The notes under the pieces are model-generated. The model was not told the DNA's origin, did not search any database, and was given only the letters and a program-made list of their open reading frames with translations. Of a stretch of DNA of 64,000 nucleotides, positions 1,506 through 55,725 are shown one piece after another. Both the position numbers and the translations under genes were made by a program. Source of the stretch: Streptomyces sp. NBC_00078. GTDB lineage: Bacteria > Actinomycetota > Actinomycetes > Streptomycetales > Streptomycetaceae. The DNA lies in NCBI RefSeq assembly GCF_026343335.1, contig NZ_JAPELX010000001.1:3596001-3660000 (forward strand), in the 5' to 3' direction. Position 1 is the stretch's first letter. The number at the start of each line of letters is the position of its first letter.

Positions 1506-3647
1506 GTGACCATTCCGGCCGGCCCTCCCCCCACGGGCGGCGGCGAAGGCGAGAGCAGGAGCGTGAAGCTGCTCGCCGTTACCGCATGCCCGACCGGCAT
1601 TGCACACACGTACATGGCCGCGGAGAAGCTCGCGCAGGCCGCCGCGAGCCGTGGCATCGACATGAAGGTGGAGACCCAGGGATCAATCGGGGCTGAAAAC
1701 GTCCTCGATGACAACGATGTCAGCACCGCGGACGGCGTCATCGTCGCCACGGACAAGGATGTGGACCTGAGCCGTTTCGTGGGCAAGCGGGTGCTCAAGG
1801 TCGGGGTGGCGGAGGGTATTCACCATCCCGAACGGCTGATCGAGCAGGTGCGGTCGGCGCCCGTGCACCGGCCGGGGAGCGCGGCGGCAGCGCCGTCGGC
1901 CGGTGGTGGCAAGGAGCGGAGCGTCGGGTACAAGGCGCTGATGAACGGGGTCAGCTACATGATCCCGTTCGTGGTGGTCGGCGGGCTGCTGATCGCGATC
2001 TCGCTGTCGCTCGGCGGGCACGCGGACCCCTCGGGCGGTCTGGTCATCCCGAAGGACTCCTTCTGGATGGACGTGAACAACATCGGCGTGATCGGCTTCA
2101 CGCTGATGGTGCCGATTCTGTCCGGGTACATCGCGTATGCCATCGGCGACCGGCCCGCGCTCGTGCCGGGCATGATCGGTGGCTGGATCGCGAACACGGG
2201 GTCGTTGTACGACTCCAAGGCGGGCGCCGGCTTCATCGGGGCGATCGTGACCGGGTTCCTCGCCGGGTATCTGGTGTTGTGGATCAAGAAGGTCAGGGTC
2301 CCGAAGTTCGTACGGCCGATCATGCCCATCATCGTGATCCCGATCCTGGCGACGACGGCGCTCGGGATGTTCTTCATCTACGTCATAGGGCAGCCGATCT
2401 CATGGGTGTTCGAGCATCTGACCAGCTGGCTCAGTGGGATGACGGGCACGAGTGCGATCCTGCTCGGCGCGATTCTGGGGCTCATGATCGCGTTCGACAT
2501 GGGCGGGCCGGTCAACAAGACGGCGTTCCTGTTCGGCGCGGGGCTCATCGCGACCGGCAACCAGACGGTCATGGGCATGTGTGCCGCCGCGATCCCGGTC
2601 ATGCCGCTGGGACAGGGGCTGGCGACGTTGCTGCGCAAGCGGCTCTACACCGAGCAGGAGCGTGAGACCGGTCTCGCGTCCCTGTTCATGGGGTGTTTCG
2701 GGATCTCCGAAGGCGCGATTCCGTTCGCGGCGGCGCGGCCCGCGCAGGTCATTCCGGCCAACATGCTCGGCGGCGCGGTGGCCGGTGCGGTCGCCGGGAT
2801 CGCGGGTGTGAAGGACGCTGTGCCGCACGGCGGACCGATCGTGGCTGTGCTGGGTGCGGTCAGCGGCGTGCCGATGTTCTTCGTGGCGGTGGTGGTCGGC
2901 ACGGTGGCCACGGCGCTGACGACGGTGGCCCTGGTCGACATCAGCGAGCGCAAGCGGCGCGCGGAGCCGGTGCTCGGTGCGGGGGTGGCCGGTGGCGAGC
3001 CGGTGTCCCCGTTGGTCCCGGCCGGCGTGGGTACGTCGTCGGGTTCGGGCGCGCGTGCTGTCGTAGCGCCGCAAGCCGTGCGTGGATCCGCGTCGGCCGG
3101 TGCGGGCTCCGGTGGAGGGAACTCCGCTCCTGAGGCCGAGCCGACTCGTTCCGCCGACGCAGGTACCGGTGCCGAAGGTACCGAAGGTGCCGATGTCCTC
3201 TCCGGCTATCTCACCGAACGGACCGTCAAGATCCGGCTCGACGCGCAGGAGAAGGAGGCTGCCATCCGGGAGATGGCGGGGCTGTTGGCGCGCAGCGGCA
3301 AGGTGGCGGACGGGGACGAACTCGTGCGGACCGCGCTGCGGCGCGAGGAGCAGGGCACCACCGGGCTCGGCGAGGAGATCGCGATTCCGCATGCCAAGAC
3401 GGACGCGGTGACCGCGCCGGTCGTCGGGTTCGCCCGGTCCGACGAGGGCGTCGAGTGGGGCTCGATGGACGGTACGAGGGCGCGGCTGGTGTTCATGATC
3501 GCCGTACCGGAGGCGGCCGCGGGCGATGAGCACCTGCGGATTCTGGCGGTGCTGTCGCGGAAGTTGATGGACGACGGGTTCCGGGAGCGGCTGACCGCCG
3601 CGGCCAACGAGCGGGCCGTGCTCGACGTGCTGGGTGAGATCGGGTGA
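1506..3647 (+). CDS. fruA: Fructose-specific PTS permease, fused EIIB-EIIC-EIIA
   Basis: Membrane permease that imports fructose and phosphorylates it using phospho-HPr. The 713-residue chain has an EIIB domain first (about 19-115, motif VTACPTGIAHTY with phospho-Cys28). A multi-span EIIC channel follows (about 140-480, with GPVNKTAFLFG and GISEGAIPFA). After a Gly/Ala/Ser-rich linker the EIIA domain ends the protein (about 565-713; IPHAK gives phospho-His629). The GTG start sits 5 nt after an AGGAGA site. Neither fruK (1-phosphofructokinase) nor a fruR repressor gene is adjacent, so the partners must be elsewhere. Fructose is the likeliest substrate by EIIB/EIIC similarity; mannose-type specificity cannot be excluded. 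Confidence 0.93.
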   Translation: MTIPAGPPPTGGGEGESRSVKLLAVTACPTGIAHTYMAAEKLAQAAASRGIDMKVETQGSIGAENVLDDNDVSTADGVIVATDKDVDLSRFVGKRVLKVGVAEGIHHPERLIEQVRSAPVHRPGSAAAAPSAGGGKERSVGYKALMNGVSYMIPFVVVGGLLIAISLSLGGHADPSGGLVIPKDSFWMDVNNIGVIGFTLMVPILSGYIAYAIGDRPALVPGMIGGWIANTGSLYDSKAGAGFIGAIVTGFLAGYLVLWIKKVRVPKFVRPIMPIIVIPILATTALGMFFIYVIGQPISWVFEHLTSWLSGMTGTSAILLGAILGLMIAFDMGGPVNKTAFLFGAGLIATGNQTVMGMCAAAIPVMPLGQGLATLLRKRLYTEQERETGLASLFMGCFGISEGAIPFAAARPAQVIPANMLGGAVAGAVAGIAGVKDAVPHGGPIVAVLGAVSGVPMFFVAVVVGTVATALTTVALVDISERKRRAEPVLGAGVAGGEPVSPLVPAGVGTSSGSGARAVVAPQAVRGSASAGAGSGGGNSAPEAEPTRSADAGTGAEGTEGADVLSGYLTERTVKIRLDAQEKEAAIREMAGLLARSGKVADGDELVRTALRREEQGTTGLGEEIAIPHAKTDAVTAPVVGFARSDEGVEWGSMDGTRARLVFMIAVPEAAAGDEHLRILAVLSRKLMDDGFRERLTAAANERAVLDVLGEIG

Positions 3648-4440
3648 GCTGAAAGATGCTGGTAGGGGTCCGTGCGCCGAACGCCGTGCGGGCCCGCACC
3701 GGGTGTTCACCGAGACCGTCCATTCTCCGCGCCGCGGATGGGCCGCATGGGGAGGTTGTGACACGGCGCGCAGAGGGCGGGGACTGGGGATCGCGGCGCT
3801 CGTGGTGGGGTTGGTGCCGGCGATCGGCATCTTCGTCTACGGGCGCGGCGCGTACGGCGTGGGCACGCAGCCCGGTGGGAGCATGGCGCGGACGTACAAG
3901 GCGGGCGAGCGCATCGTGTGGGAGCAGGTGGACGGCAGCGAGGTGCGGCGCGGTGACGTCGTGCTGTTCTCCGCACCGGACCGCTACGGCGCCGAAGGGG
4001 TCCACATGCAACGGGTGATCGGAGTGGGCGGCGACCGCGTGGCCTGCTGCACGTTCGTGGGCTCCCAGGAGCGGGTCACCGTGAACGGGAAGCCGGTCAA
4101 GGAGCCTTACGTCAATGGGGGCGACGCCGACGGTGGGCACGAGCAGTACGACGTAACCGTGCCGCAGGGGCGGATGTTCCTGCTGGGCGACCACCGTGCC
4201 GACGCGATGGACTCCCGTTTCTTCGCCAAGGACCACGGGGGAACCGTGCCCGTGGACGCCGTGCGGGGCCGAGTGACGGACGACCGTACGATCCTGGTTC
4301 TGCTGGGCTCGGCCCTGCTGCTCGGCGCGGTGCTGTTCCTCACCGGCATCGGGCTGGGGATCGGCTTCCTGGTGGTGCGGCGGCGCCAGGCGCCGCCGGT
4401 ACCGCCGGCGCCCTGGCCCAACCAGCCGGTTCAGGTCTGA
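3634..4440 (+). CDS. Signal peptidase I-like (S26) membrane protein lacking the catalytic Lys
   Basis: S26-family fold: N-terminal membrane span (about 50-70), Ser box GGSMART (Ser83 in the longest reading), a box ending RVIGVGGDRV, the GDHRADAMDSR box, and a second C-terminal membrane span (about 220-250). In active type I signal peptidases the residue just before RV(I/V)G is the general-base Lys. Here the codon is CAA, giving HMQRVIG with Gln126. An ER-type His in that place is also absent. The longest reading overlaps fruA by 14 bp and has no good ribosome site; an in-frame GTG at 3703 is an equal or better start. Protease activity is therefore doubtful. Confidence 0.82.
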   Translation: MRSGELKDAGRGPCAERRAGPHRVFTETVHSPRRGWAAWGGCDTARRGRGLGIAALVVGLVPAIGIFVYGRGAYGVGTQPGGSMARTYKAGERIVWEQVDGSEVRRGDVVLFSAPDRYGAEGVHMQRVIGVGGDRVACCTFVGSQERVTVNGKPVKEPYVNGGDADGGHEQYDVTVPQGRMFLLGDHRADAMDSRFFAKDHGGTVPVDAVRGRVTDDRTILVLLGSALLLGAVLFLTGIGLGIGFLVVRRRQAPPVPPAPWPNQPVQV

Positions 4441-4444
4441 GCGC

Positions 4445-5425
4445 TCAGTGCTCCGCCGGGTGCGGCGCCGGTCCTCCCGGCGTCGCCTCGCGGTCCGGGC
4501 CCTTGGCGGCGTCGGACTCGCTGTAGATGTCCGGCTCGAGGTAGATGACGCGGGCGATGGGGACGGCGGCGCGGATACGGGTCTCGGCTGCGTTGATGGC
4601 GGAGGCGACCTGGGCGGCCGTGTCGTCGTGCTGGACGGCGATCTTGGCGGCGACCAGCAGTTCCTCCGGGCCGAGGTGGAGCGTGCGCATGTGGATGATG
4701 CCGGTGACCGTGTCACCGTCGACCACCGCGGCCTCGATCTTCTTGACGTCTTCGGTGCCGGCGGCCTCGCCGAGCAGCAGGGACTTGGTCTCGGCAGCGA
4801 GGACGAGCGCGATCAGGACGAGCAGGACGCCGATGCAGACGGTGCCGATGCCGTCCCAGACGCCGTCGCCGGTGAGCAGGGCGAGCCCGACGCCACCGAG
4901 CGCGAGGACCAGACCGATCAGTGCGCCGAAGTCCTCCAGGAGGACGACCGGCAACTCGGGCGCCTTGGCGCGCCGGATGAACTGTGGCCAGGACAGCGCG
5001 CCCCGCAGTTCGTTGGACTCCTTGATGGCCGTGCGGAAGGAGAAGCCCTCGGCGATGACCGCGAAGAGGAGGACGCCCACCGGCCAGTACCAGTGCTCCA
5101 CCTCATGCGGGTGGCGGATCTTCTCGTAGCCCTCGTAGATGGCGAACATGCCGCCGACCGAGAAGAGGACGATCGAGACGAGGAAGGCGTAGATGTACCG
5201 CTCGCGGCCGTAGCCGAAGGGGTGTTGCGGGGTCGCCTCGCGCTGGGCCTTCTTGCCGCCGATCAGGAGCAGGGCCTGATTGCCGGAGTCGGCGAGCGAG
5301 TGGACGCCCTCGGCGAGCATCGACGACGAACCGCTGAACGCGAACGCCACGAACTTCGATGCCGCGATCGCGAGGTTGGCGCCGAGTGCCGCCACGATCG
5401 CCCTGGTGCCGCCTGACGCGCTCAT
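4445..5425 (-). CDS. Cation diffusion facilitator (CDF) family transporter
   Basis: Inner-membrane metal/proton antiporter of 326 residues. The N-terminal half has about six membrane spans. TM2 carries VHSLADSGNQ (His42-x3-Asp46) and TM5 carries LLEDFGALIG (Glu164/Asp165), the metal-binding positions of a CDF subfamily. The C-terminal part (about 215-300) resembles the ferredoxin-like cytosolic CDF domain. Zn, Mn or Fe are all possible substrates; the sequence does not decide. Its stop codon is only 4 bp from that of the convergent signal-peptidase-like gene, and both stops lie inside one 12-bp palindrome. Confidence 0.92.
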   Translation of the reverse strand: MSASGGTRAIVAALGANLAIAASKFVAFAFSGSSSMLAEGVHSLADSGNQALLLIGGKKAQREATPQHPFGYGRERYIYAFLVSIVLFSVGGMFAIYEGYEKIRHPHEVEHWYWPVGVLLFAVIAEGFSFRTAIKESNELRGALSWPQFIRRAKAPELPVVLLEDFGALIGLVLALGGVGLALLTGDGVWDGIGTVCIGVLLVLIALVLAAETKSLLLGEAAGTEDVKKIEAAVVDGDTVTGIIHMRTLHLGPEELLVAAKIAVQHDDTAAQVASAINAAETRIRAAVPIARVIYLEPDIYSESDAAKGPDREATPGGPAPHPAEH

Positions 5426-51730: not shown

Positions 51731-52090
51731 ATGGCTCTCGCCAAGCTGGGTGCCGTCGTCCTGGACTGTCCCGACCCGAGCGCGCTGGCCGGTTTCTACG
51801 CCGGCGTGCTGGGCGGCACCGTCGAGGGCGAGGGCGACTGGGTGGATCTGAGGGTGCCCGGCGGACAGTCGCTGGCCTTCCAGTCCGCCTCCGGGTTCGT
51901 GGCGCCCGAGTGGCCCGCGCCCGACCGCTCGCAGCAGTTCCACCTTGACCTGACCGTCGACGACCTGGACGCGGCGGAGGCAGGCGTGCTGGCGCTGGGT
52001 GCCAAGCCGCTGGACACCGACGACCGCTCGCGCACCTGGCGGGTTTACGCGGATCCGGCAGGGCACCCGTTCTGCCTCTGTGCCTGCTGA
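51731..52090 (+). CDS. VOC-superfamily (glyoxalase-like) protein A
   Basis: 119 residues forming one VOC half-barrel pair: LGAVVLDCPDPSALAGFYAG, then DWVDLRVPGGQSLAFQ, FHLDLTVDDLDAAEAGVLAL and YADPAGHPFCL. VOC proteins bind metals and act as lyases, dioxygenases or resistance proteins; the substrate here is not evident. GGAGGAG precedes the ATG. Tandem paralogue of the next gene, 110 bp apart. Confidence 0.88.
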   Translation: MALAKLGAVVLDCPDPSALAGFYAGVLGGTVEGEGDWVDLRVPGGQSLAFQSASGFVAPEWPAPDRSQQFHLDLTVDDLDAAEAGVLALGAKPLDTDDRSRTWRVYADPAGHPFCLCAC

Positions 52091-52200: not shown

Positions 52201-52590
52201 ATGTCCGTGGCCCGCTTCCGCTCCGTCGTCCTCGACTGCCCCGACCCGCGCGCACTCGCCCGCTTCTACGCGGGCGTCGTGGGCGGTACGCCCGAGGAGG
52301 AGGACGCCGACTGGGTCGTGCTCCACGTCCCGGGCGGGCCCCGGCTCGCCTTCCAGCGGGCGGAGGGCTTCACCCCGCCCGAGTGGCCGCGCGCGGACCG
52401 CAACTCGCAGCAGTTCCACCTCGACTTCGACGGCGGGTCGACCTGGGAGGAGATGGACGCGGCGCACGAGAGGGTGCTGGCCCTGGGCGCGCGGCCGCTG
52501 GATCTGGAGGACCGGGAGAAGAAGGACTTCCAGGTGTACGCCGATCCGGCCGGGCATCCCTTCTGCCTCTGCCGGATCGACAACCCGTAA
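52201..52590 (+). CDS. VOC-superfamily (glyoxalase-like) protein B
   Basis: 129 residues, a clear paralogue of VOC protein A (VVLDCPDPRALARFYAG, LHVPGGPRLAFQR, QQFHLDFDGG, YADPAGHPFCLCR). It differs by a longer loop (NSQQ...STWEEMDAAHERV). AGGAGG lies 6 bp before the ATG. The duplication suggests a dimer or two related substrates. The CGNR regulator is transcribed divergently from the upstream copy. Confidence 0.88.
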   Translation: MSVARFRSVVLDCPDPRALARFYAGVVGGTPEEEDADWVVLHVPGGPRLAFQRAEGFTPPEWPRADRNSQQFHLDFDGGSTWEEMDAAHERVLALGARPLDLEDREKKDFQVYADPAGHPFCLCRIDNP

Positions 52591-52604: not shown

Positions 52605-53711
52605 TCACCCGTCCAGTTCCACGATCTTCGCCGTCGACGGCTCCCGGCGCTGCTGGGCCGCGCGGGCGGTGAAATCGCCGCTGCGCAGGACCCGCTGGAC
52701 GTTTCCCCAGGTCAGCAGGGCGATGTCAGGCTCCGACCAGCCGCGGTGCAGCAGCTCGGCGATGAGGTACGGATAGCAGGAGGCGTCGCCGAGTTCCTGC
52801 GGGTGTGCGGTGCCGGCGTCGTAGGTGCCGGACAGGCCGACGCACGCCGGGCCCGCCACCTCGCGCACATGGTCGAGGTGGTCGGCGACGTCCCGGACGG
52901 ACGGACCCGTCTGCTCCGGTGTGAGCGGCACCATGCACAGGCCCTTGGCGGCACCCAGCCCGGCGAGCAGGTCGTCGGGGAGGTTGGCCGGGTGGGGGCG
53001 CAGGGAGCGGGCGGCGGAGCGGGTGAACAGGACCGGCGCCCTGGAGACCGCAAGGACCCGGCGGACGGTGTCCGCGGAGGCGCCCGAGAGGTCGGGGAGC
53101 ACGCCGACCCGGTTCATCTCGCGTACGACCTCCTCGCCGAACCGGGTGAGCCCGGCCTCGCTCGCCCAGGACACCCCGGACAGGGTGAGGACGCGCAGGC
53201 CGAGGGCGTGCAGGGCGCGCAGGATGCCGAGGGAGTCGCCGAGGGCGGCGGCCCCGGCGGGGCCGAGCAGGACGGCGATACGGCCGCAGTTGCGGGCGTC
53301 GGTGGCCTGCCCGGCGGTGCACACCAGGCGCAGGCCCTCGGGGTGGGTCCGTACGACGGTGTTCACCAGGTCAAGCTGCTCCAGGGTCGCGCCGACGGCC
53401 CGGTCCCCGACGATGCCCTCCGGCAGGTGCAGCGACCAGAACAGCGCACCGACGTGGCCCTCGCGCAGCCGTGGCACGTCCGTGTCGACGGAGGCCTCGC
53501 CCAGCTCCAGGTCGTACCAGGGCATATGCCTGAGCGCCCACGGCAGTCCGCTGTAGCCGTCGGCGACGGGATGGGCGGCGAGGATGGCGCGGGCGCGCTC
53601 CAGTGGGGCGCCGGCCGGGTCGGAGACCTGCGCGTAGGACTCGGCCTCGAAGGGATCCGGCAGGCCGTCGAGTTCGCTGGAGCTGTGCAGTTCGTCCTGG
53701 AGGTCTGCCAT
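52605..53711 (-). CDS. Membrane-dipeptidase-family protein that has lost all zinc ligands
   Basis: 368 residues with the overall sequence of renal/membrane dipeptidases, strongly similar to the neighbouring gene. Each metal-site residue is altered: DGHND is DGYSG (Tyr53, Gly55), the bridging Glu is Ala152, the next His is Gly210, the following His is Arg231, and the substrate/metal Asp is Thr296. It should not hydrolyse dipeptides and may be a regulatory or scaffold partner. The ATG follows GGAG. The same frame is open for about 300 bp upstream and includes a CCPVC motif. Confidence 0.87.
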   Translation of the reverse strand: MADLQDELHSSSELDGLPDPFEAESYAQVSDPAGAPLERARAILAAHPVADGYSGLPWALRHMPWYDLELGEASVDTDVPRLREGHVGALFWSLHLPEGIVGDRAVGATLEQLDLVNTVVRTHPEGLRLVCTAGQATDARNCGRIAVLLGPAGAAALGDSLGILRALHALGLRVLTLSGVSWASEAGLTRFGEEVVREMNRVGVLPDLSGASADTVRRVLAVSRAPVLFTRSAARSLRPHPANLPDDLLAGLGAAKGLCMVPLTPEQTGPSVRDVADHLDHVREVAGPACVGLSGTYDAGTAHPQELGDASCYPYLIAELLHRGWSEPDIALLTWGNVQRVLRSGDFTARAAQQRREPSTAKIVELDG

Positions 53712-54010
53712 GGCGGGCTCCGTACGTCGTGAATCGTCCCCAAGGGGTACGGTCACCGTCGCACGGGGGCGCGGGGGGCTTCCTGGTGAGTGGGGCGTTC
53801 GGGGGACCGGACCGGACCGGCGCTCCTGGGCCGCCTCGATGACCTCGTCCAGGGTGTCCCGGGAGCGGACGAGGTCCGCGACCAGCCGCGGTGTGGCGAT
53901 CGCCGGTGGCCCGCCGTCCCGGTCGCGCATGGTCGCGCATACCGGGCAGCAGCTGCCGTGGGCGGGGCCGACGGCTACGCCGGCCACCCCGCCCTCGCCG
54001 CTCGGCGGAC

Positions 54011-55204
54011 TCAGCTCTCGGAGCCGTCCAGCGACTCGATCGTGGCGTTGGACGGCGAGCGGGTCCCCTGAAGGTCCCGCGCCACGTCCTGCGCCGCACC
54101 CAGCACCCGTACCGAGTTCTGCCAGGTCAGCTTGGCCAGGTCGGGCTTCGACCAGCCGCGGTCCAGCAGTTCGGCGATCAGGTTCGGATAGCCGGAGACA
54201 TCGCTCAGACCGTCGGGTGTGAAGGCCGTGCCGTCGTAGTCGCCGCCGATGCCGAGGTGGTCGACGCCGGCGACCTCGCGCATGTGGTCGAGGTGGTCGG
54301 CGACCGTGGACACCGTGGCGACGGGGCGCGGGGTGCGCTCCTCGAAGGCGCGGTGCAGCTTCATCGCCTCCTCGCCGGTGTCCAGGTGGTGGAAGCCGTG
54401 GGCGCGCAGGTTCTCGTCGGCCGCGGCCGTCCAGTCCACGGCCGCCTGCAGCACGAACTTCGGCACGAACGTGACCATGGCCACGCCGCCGTTGCCCGGC
54501 AGGCGTTCCAGGACGTCGTCCGGGATGTTGCGCGGGTGGTCGCACACGGCCAGCGAGGAGGAGTGGGAGAAGATCACCGGCGCGGACGTGGCGTCCAGCG
54601 CGTCGCGCATCGTCGTCGCCGCGACGTGCGAGAGGTCGACGAGCATGCCGAGGCGGTTCATCTCCCGGACGACCTCACGGCCGAACGCGGACAGTCCGCC
54701 CACGCTCGGCTCGTCGGTCGCCGAGTCCGCCCACGGGTTGTTGTCGTTGTGGGTGAGCGTCATGTAGCGCACGCCCAGCTCGTACAGACCGCGCAGCGTG
54801 CCCAGCGAGCAGCCGATGGAGTGGCCGCCCTCCGCCCCCATGAGGGAGGCGATACGGCCCTCCCGGCGCGCCGACTCCATGTCCGCGGCCGTCAGCGCGG
54901 GCGCCAGGTCCGCCGGGTAGCGGGCCAGCAACTGCCGTACGCAGTCGATCTGTTCGAGCGTCGCGGGCACCGCGTCCGGCAGGTCCGAGCGGACGTACAC
55001 CGACCAGTACTGCGCACCGACGCCGCCCTCGCGCAGGCGCGGGATGTCGGTGTGCAGATGGGCGTTCTGGTGCTGCGCGATGTCGCGGACGCCGAGGTCG
55101 TAGCCGACCTTGCGCAGCGCCCAGGGCAGATCGTTGTGGCCGTCGACGACCGGGAACTCGACGAGCAGGGCGCGGGCTTCCCTCAGAGAGGTCATCTGCG
55201 TCAC
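54011..55204 (-). CDS. Membrane dipeptidase (zinc, renal-dipeptidase family)
   Basis: 397 residues. The binuclear zinc site is intact: His23 and Asp25 ([10 protein letters not shown]), Glu125 (GAEGGHSIG), His193 (VDLSHVA), His214 (FSHSSSLAV) and Asp322 (GIGGDYDG). The S. coelicolor homologue Sco3058 has been shown to be a zinc dipeptidase acting on dipeptides with a D-residue at the C-terminus; this protein is its close relative. Start overlaps the purE stop by 4 bp. It may recycle wall-derived or secondary-metabolite dipeptides. Confidence 0.94.
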
Positions 55205-55725
55205 TTCCCGAAGCCGAAACCGCCGCCGCTGTTGTCGACCTTGGCGCGCAGGCGCTTGCCCTTCTCCGTGGCCTGGTCGTTCAGTTCCTGCTGGAAGTCC
55301 CGCATGCGGACGAGGAGTTCCTCGTCGTGTGCGGCGAGGATGCGGGCCGCGAGGAGGCCGGCGTTGCGGGCGCCGGCGACGGAGACGGTGGCGACGGGCA
55401 CGCCGGCCGGCATCTGCACGATCGACAGCAGGGAGTCCATGCCGTCCAGGTACTTCAGCGGCACGGGCACGCCGATCACCGGCAGCGGGGTCACGGAGGC
55501 GAGCATGCCCGGCAGATGGGCGGCGCCACCGGCCCCCGCGATGATCACCTTCAGACCCCGCTCGGCGGCCTGCTCGCCGTACGTGATCATCTCGCGCGGC
55601 ATCCGGTGCGCGGAGACGACGTCGACCTCGTAGCCGATCTCGAACTCGTCGAGGGCCTGGGCGGCGGCCTCCATGACGGGCCAGTCGGAGTCCGACCCCA
55701 TGACGATGCCTACAACGGGGCTCAT
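55201..55725 (-). CDS. purE: N5-carboxyaminoimidazole ribonucleotide mutase
   Basis: Rearranges N5-CAIR to CAIR in purine synthesis. 174 residues with [13 protein letters not shown] at the N-terminus, SAHRMP with catalytic His40, and [13 protein letters not shown]. Class I PurE. It is separated from purK by 158 bp and overlaps the downstream dipeptidase gene by 4 bp, so purine synthesis and dipeptide hydrolysis are transcribed together. Confidence 0.96.

Follow-up and report, generated by a model that had tools for sequence, protein, structure and literature searches.

A conserved M19 pseudo-dipeptidase without metal ligands is encoded beside an intact dipeptidase in Streptomyces

The window (the whole stretch of 64,000 nucleotides that was analyzed) contains two adjacent genes of the M19 dipeptidase family, one with all of its catalytic residues and one from which the metal ligands are gone. 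This pattern of active-site loss was present in 134/134 orthologues of the second gene and in 0/123 of the catalytically intact twins. As a whole, the explanation that we favor is a vertically inherited, non-catalytic M19 barrel that would function through protein contacts, with the twin as its likeliest partner, and that would have its own promoter; we put this forward tentatively, at somewhat below an even chance of being right in all of its parts.

52605..53711, minus strand: pseudo-dipeptidase gene, ATG start, 368 amino acids, predicted M19 TIM-barrel fold without metal ligands
53622..53711, minus strand: N-terminal tail (codons 1-30, MADLQDELH...), disordered and missing from the twin
54011..55204, minus strand: active twin, an M19 zinc dipeptidase and Sco3058 orthologue with all catalytic residues present
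55201..55725, minus strand: purE (AIR carboxylase), upstream of the twin in the same operon-like row

The window protein was 42% identical to the twin, and the Pfam profile PF01244 (Peptidase_M19) matched its residues 44-343 at E 9e-85. In twin numbering the substitutions were H23Y, D25G, E125A, H193G, H214R and D322T, the ligand and catalytic positions of the window protein being Y53, G55, A152, G210, R231 and T296. All five zinc ligands (His, Asp, the bridging Glu, His and His) are gone. An earlier note on this DNA had described every zinc ligand as replaced; all six of its substitutions are correct, but Asp322 does not belong among the ligands. We take this residue to be the catalytic Asp of the M19 family (Asp288 of human DPEP1), a correspondence that was also seen in our alignment. 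Read from that alignment, the true tally of loss is five zinc ligands plus the presumed catalytic acid/base. Further losses were found beyond those given in the note: the substrate-contacting His152 loop is deleted, Arg225 is replaced by Ala (A242 in the window protein), and a 33-residue insert is absent. Arg225 corresponds to DPEP1 Arg230, which binds the substrate carboxylate, and the deleted loop carries the substrate-binding His (DPEP1 H152). Thus, the zinc ligands, the catalytic Asp and the substrate-binding His and Arg of an active M19 enzyme are all missing from the window protein, which almost certainly has no peptidase activity. Because the Pfam model labels it a membrane dipeptidase, it is likely to be called an enzyme in automatic annotation despite the residues lost.

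M19 genes were found in 392 of the 393 Streptomyces genomes searched. A copy of the pseudoenzyme type was present in at least about 179 of them (about 46%, counted manually at E < 1e-68, with more diverged copies besides, such as loci L187-L189). A sample of 140 loci provided 134 pseudoenzyme copies, including the one in the window, and the 123 twins. As aligned, the ligand losses in this sample far exceed chance. Asp25, Glu125 and Asp322 were kept in 0/134 pseudoenzymes, Arg225 in 2/134, His193 in 3/134, His214 in 11/134 and His23 in 20/134, and the His152 loop was deleted in 132/134. The identical residue pattern was seen at 80 loci in a scan of named genomes, nearly all titled Streptomyces and including S. 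violaceoruber, S. canus and S. antibioticus. The earlier note had asked whether the same substitutions recur in orthologues of other Streptomyces, and had named retained zinc ligands as a refuting outcome; the pattern of loss recurred in 134/134, contrary to that outcome. A local mutation or sequencing artefact is ruled out by this recurrence in the 134 orthologues and the 80 named-genome loci. A search of 51 genomes from other genera of the Streptomycetaceae gave no gene of the pseudoenzyme type; the 13 best-matching genes were inspected by residue, and the rest were judged by twin-typical coverage. Twelve of the 13 inspected genes carry all nine active-site residues, and the remaining one differs only at position 128. 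A Streptomyces-type pseudoenzyme with 78% identity was also present in a record (L248) under the title Kitasatospora aureofaciens NRRL B-2183, a strain that is probably misnamed. Among the papers searched, none dealt with SCO3057, M19 pseudoenzymes or such a family.

The twin matched PDB 3ID7 (Sco3058) at 722 bits. Its nine active-site residues were invariant in 123/123 twins. They were likewise intact in 72 of 74 additional twins taken from named genomes, and the remaining two sequences were incomplete in the columns concerned. The twin also occurs without the pseudoenzyme in about half of Streptomyces and in the sampled related genera, indicating that it has no need of the pseudoenzyme. Its GTG start overlaps the purE stop by 4 nt (window 55201-55204), suggesting that translation of the dipeptidase is coupled to that of the purine synthesis genes. 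One genome (G153, locus L176, about 3591-4812) contained a twin with a single in-frame stop next to an intact pseudoenzyme; the stop could be a true nonsense mutation or a sequencing error.

Sco3058 is the closest bacterial homologue of human renal dipeptidase. An AlphaFold2 model of the window protein (73 sequences) had a mean pLDDT of 91.7, with values of about 98 over most of the barrel and low confidence for residues 1-30. A fold search with this model gave Sco3058 as the best solved match (TM 0.87, rmsd 1.7 Å), and human DPEP1 and DPEP3 matched at TM 0.84-0.86. Both the PF01244 profile and the match to Sco3058 place the window protein in the M19 fold family, and the pseudoenzyme is predicted to keep the Sco3058 TIM-barrel fold. 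Like Sco3058 (PDB 3ID7, 3ITC and 3S2J), of which the window twin is the orthologue, the pseudoenzyme is a predicted TIM barrel, at about 42% identity. Unlike Sco3058, which is described as a binuclear zinc dipeptidase where PMC6268094 cites Cummings et al. 2010, the window protein lacks the metal ligands, the His152 loop, the substrate Arg and the 33-residue insert, and it has an extra N-terminal tail. The first six residues of this tail were conserved across the pseudoenzyme clade, and the rest were variable. The M19 fold is shared with the human membrane dipeptidases DPEP1 and DPEP3. These are GPI-anchored proteins that keep most or all of the metal ligands, and DPEP3 has an active-site substitution and is poorly active. 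In contrast, the window protein has no metal ligand, and no hydrophobic signal sequence was visible in it when inspected by eye; it is therefore probably cytosolic. A neutrophil-receptor function is known for DPEP1 (PMC12128987), which shows that the M19 fold can take on roles other than catalysis.

In a maximum-likelihood tree of 83 rows, one branch with an SH-aLRT of 100 separated the pseudoenzymes from the twins. That the pseudoenzymes form one clade implies a single event of ligand loss close to the base of the genus. In the simplest history, the dipeptidase gene was duplicated in tandem a single time, at or near the origin of Streptomyces, the copy lost its metal site once, and it was later deleted on several occasions; genus-wide vertical inheritance of the pseudoenzyme is the best explanation. 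Where the pseudoenzyme is missing, the twin lies directly next to the following genes of the row (clean syntenic gaps), and one genome (G024) has only a C-terminal remnant. His23 and His214 persist more often in the deeper lineages, which suggests that these two residues were lost later. Two transitional forms (L183:4945-6195 and L185:3001-4251) keep most of the substrate loop and score almost equal to the twin. Both are already without Asp25, Glu125, His152, His193, His214 and Asp322, suggesting that the loop disappeared only after the active site.

The gene row consists of purK, purE, the twin and the pseudoenzyme, followed by convergent VOC (glyoxalase-like) genes, a CGNR zinc-finger regulator and UDP-glucose dehydrogenase. 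Among 116 loci with both M19 genes, the pseudoenzyme was on the same strand and downstream of the twin in 114, with a median gap of 207 bp; in several clades the two genes are apart or oppositely oriented. Three features occupy the 298-bp spacer between the pair in the window.

53747..53765, minus strand: box B (CGTGCGACGGTGACCGTAC), 36-54 nt before the ATG
53780..53805, minus strand: box A (CCCCGAACGCCCC...CACCAGGAA; consensus CCCCGAACGC), conserved upstream of the pseudoenzyme
53824..53957, minus strand: C-terminal end of a MerR-family regulator, a remnant (MRDRDGGPPAIATPRLVADLVRSRDTLDEVIEAAQER)

Boxes A and B were aligned in 131 copies and, for the most part, persist at loci where the pseudoenzyme gene does not adjoin the twin. 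The core of box B, GTG..AC.GTG, was 96-99% conserved at most positions, the fuller pattern being CGTG..ACGGTG...TAC. From this conservation, the two boxes are likely the pseudoenzyme's own promoter/operator. A regulon search with box B across the 9.33 Mb genome gave the pseudoenzyme site as the only match; with this single copy there are no co-regulated genes from which a function could be borrowed.

All 134 pseudoenzymes had open frames, although one was truncated at the edge of its contig and a few diverged copies were shorter, and their median GC3 was 0.94. In a substitution-only simulation (0.5 substitutions per site, 72% G+C) the frame stayed open in about 1% of runs, which is a weak check because about a quarter stay open if the substitutions are 90% G+C. 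A first NG86 estimate of dN/dS gave 0.53 for the pseudoenzyme vs 0.27 for the twin, and G+C-weighted site counts for 68 close pairs gave core values of 0.20 vs 0.13. The earlier note had proposed a maintained pseudoenzyme rather than a decaying gene, and had named frameshifts in relatives as evidence to the contrary. The first proposal holds, in that the orthologues share the losses and have open frames under purifying selection, and the copies in relatives were recovered as open frames. A decaying gene is rejected on account of the open frames, codon use and dN/dS. Absent catalytic residues, combined with a fold and a reading frame kept under selection, are what define a pseudoenzyme in general, and the window gene shows this combination, with the fold as predicted. 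Because the ligands are gone yet the fold is kept and selection holds, we infer that this conserved dead M19 copy most likely has a non-enzymatic role, of which the papers searched gave no description.

Constraint on the pseudoenzyme is inverted, such that the old catalytic face is the most variable part whereas the barrel and outer helices are guarded. How constraint is distributed is more telling here than mean dN/dS. Column entropy, which reflects deeper time, was 1.71 vs 1.25 for the catalytic-face loops vs the helices in the pseudoenzyme and 0.44 vs 0.61 in the twin. Similarly, helix dN/dS was almost equal in the two proteins (pseudoenzyme 0.21, twin 0.18), whereas in the former catalytic loops it was 0.21 for the pseudoenzyme vs 0.08 for the twin. 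The finding that the pocket is freer than the helices argues against dipeptide binding via the ancestral pocket and for a protein-protein role. On this evidence we consider it reasonably probable that the pseudoenzyme works through a protein partner. A role as a regulator or as a heteromer partner, both of which the earlier note had raised, is possible.

In the mechanism that we propose, tandem duplication of a Sco3058-type dipeptidase early in Streptomyces, near the base of the genus, would have produced a copy that lost its binuclear zinc site once and was retained as a cytosolic, non-catalytic TIM barrel. This barrel would regulate or stabilize a partner protein, which it would contact with its shell of outer helices and the short conserved tail at its N-terminus, and its gene would be transcribed, at least in part, from a promoter of its own. 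The most likely partner would be the neighboring active dipeptidase, in a mixed oligomer. Precedent exists in the trypanosomatid prozymes, dead paralogues of AdoMetDC and deoxyhypusine synthase that form a heteromer with the live enzyme and activate it (PMC5201418, PMC3663545); like these, the pseudo-dipeptidase is a lineage-restricted dead paralogue kept beside a live enzyme. The prozymes differ in that they are non-M19 proteins shown biochemically to be activators, whereas the M19 pair is known here from sequence and the twin is alone in about half of the genus. The identification of the twin as the partner is plausible but falls short of an even chance; the linkage of the two genes speaks for it, and the genomes in which the twin is alone and the clades in which the genes are apart or oppositely oriented speak against it. 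The evolutionary rate of the pseudoenzyme covaried with that of the twin at a partial rho of 0.52 vs 0.55 with the neighboring UDP-glucose dehydrogenase; because covariation was equal for an unrelated neighbor, the rate test does not discriminate a heteromer with the twin. We think it rather unlikely that the most specific form of the proposal is correct in full, namely a Streptomyces-specific M19 family with an exchanged functional face, in which the active site would drift, the outer helices would be the selected interaction surface, and the protein would be a dedicated regulator of dipeptide/D-amino-acid turnover encoded beside its enzyme under its own conserved promoter.

A protein partner need not be the twin. 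The pseudoenzyme might instead serve other proteins as a scaffold or regulate them, perhaps in the metabolism of the cell wall or of amino acids, with the M19 barrel used only as a stable surface. Constrained outer helices around a free pocket fit such a protein, and its own conserved upstream element, its retention in some clades away from the twin, and a twin active site that is identical with or without the pseudoenzyme all point in this direction. However, the long-standing tandem position beside the twin is left unexplained, even though tandem duplication alone would suffice to produce it. We regard a different partner as a serious possibility without favoring it.

A partnership of the pseudoenzyme with a protein also has to be weighed against uses of the former active-site pocket. 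The protein might be a sensor or sequestering protein that binds dipeptides, D-amino acids or another small molecule in that pocket, and some former ligand positions do have preferred new residues (G210 at a weighted frequency of 0.89 and R231 at 0.67), in addition to the nearly fixed P151 and C259. However, the Arg225 and His128 positions were among the most variable pseudoenzyme columns (92nd and 95th entropy percentile), and no part of the barrel is less conserved than the catalytic-face loops; together with the deletion of the His152 loop, this makes a ligand binder improbable. The dipeptide-binding protein suggested in the earlier note is disfavored for these reasons, its substrate Arg and His being gone and the old catalytic face being the least constrained. 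A new enzyme in the old pocket, metal-independent or with a differently bound metal and using Cys259 for example, could account for the near fixation of P151 (beside the lost bridging Glu, 0.97) and C259 (strand 7, 0.96) in the pseudoenzyme clade only, but a catalytic site would require a group of polar residues to have become conserved anew on the old catalytic face, and column entropy revealed none; we give this explanation very little chance. The same small chance applies to a relic under weak or relaxed selection that is being slowly lost and has no present role, as its dN of 2.3 times that of the twin, the clean syntenic gaps in about half of the genus and the C-terminal fragment in G024 might suggest. 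Against such a relic stand 134 open frames over deep divergence (with the simulation a weak check), a GC3 of 0.94, a core dN/dS of about 0.2 and the conserved upstream element.

The best-understood pseudoenzymes are mostly eukaryotic. The bacterial case described here offers about 180 natural replicates in one genus, usually with the active twin adjacent, together with a solved structure of a close relative of the twin and genomes that have lost the dead copy. It is a clean system for asking why a dead protease is retained.

Inspection of the surrounding genes revealed that about 20 relatives have an alkene reductase (OYE-type) gene between the pair, often with a MerR regulator. Since a MerR remnant is found in the window where these relatives have an intact cassette, the window holds a deletion scar. 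On the other side of the pseudoenzyme gene, two tandem Glyoxalase_6 (VOC) genes (51731-52090 and 52201-52590, plus strand) converge on it, and this pair is a conserved neighbor in many genomes.
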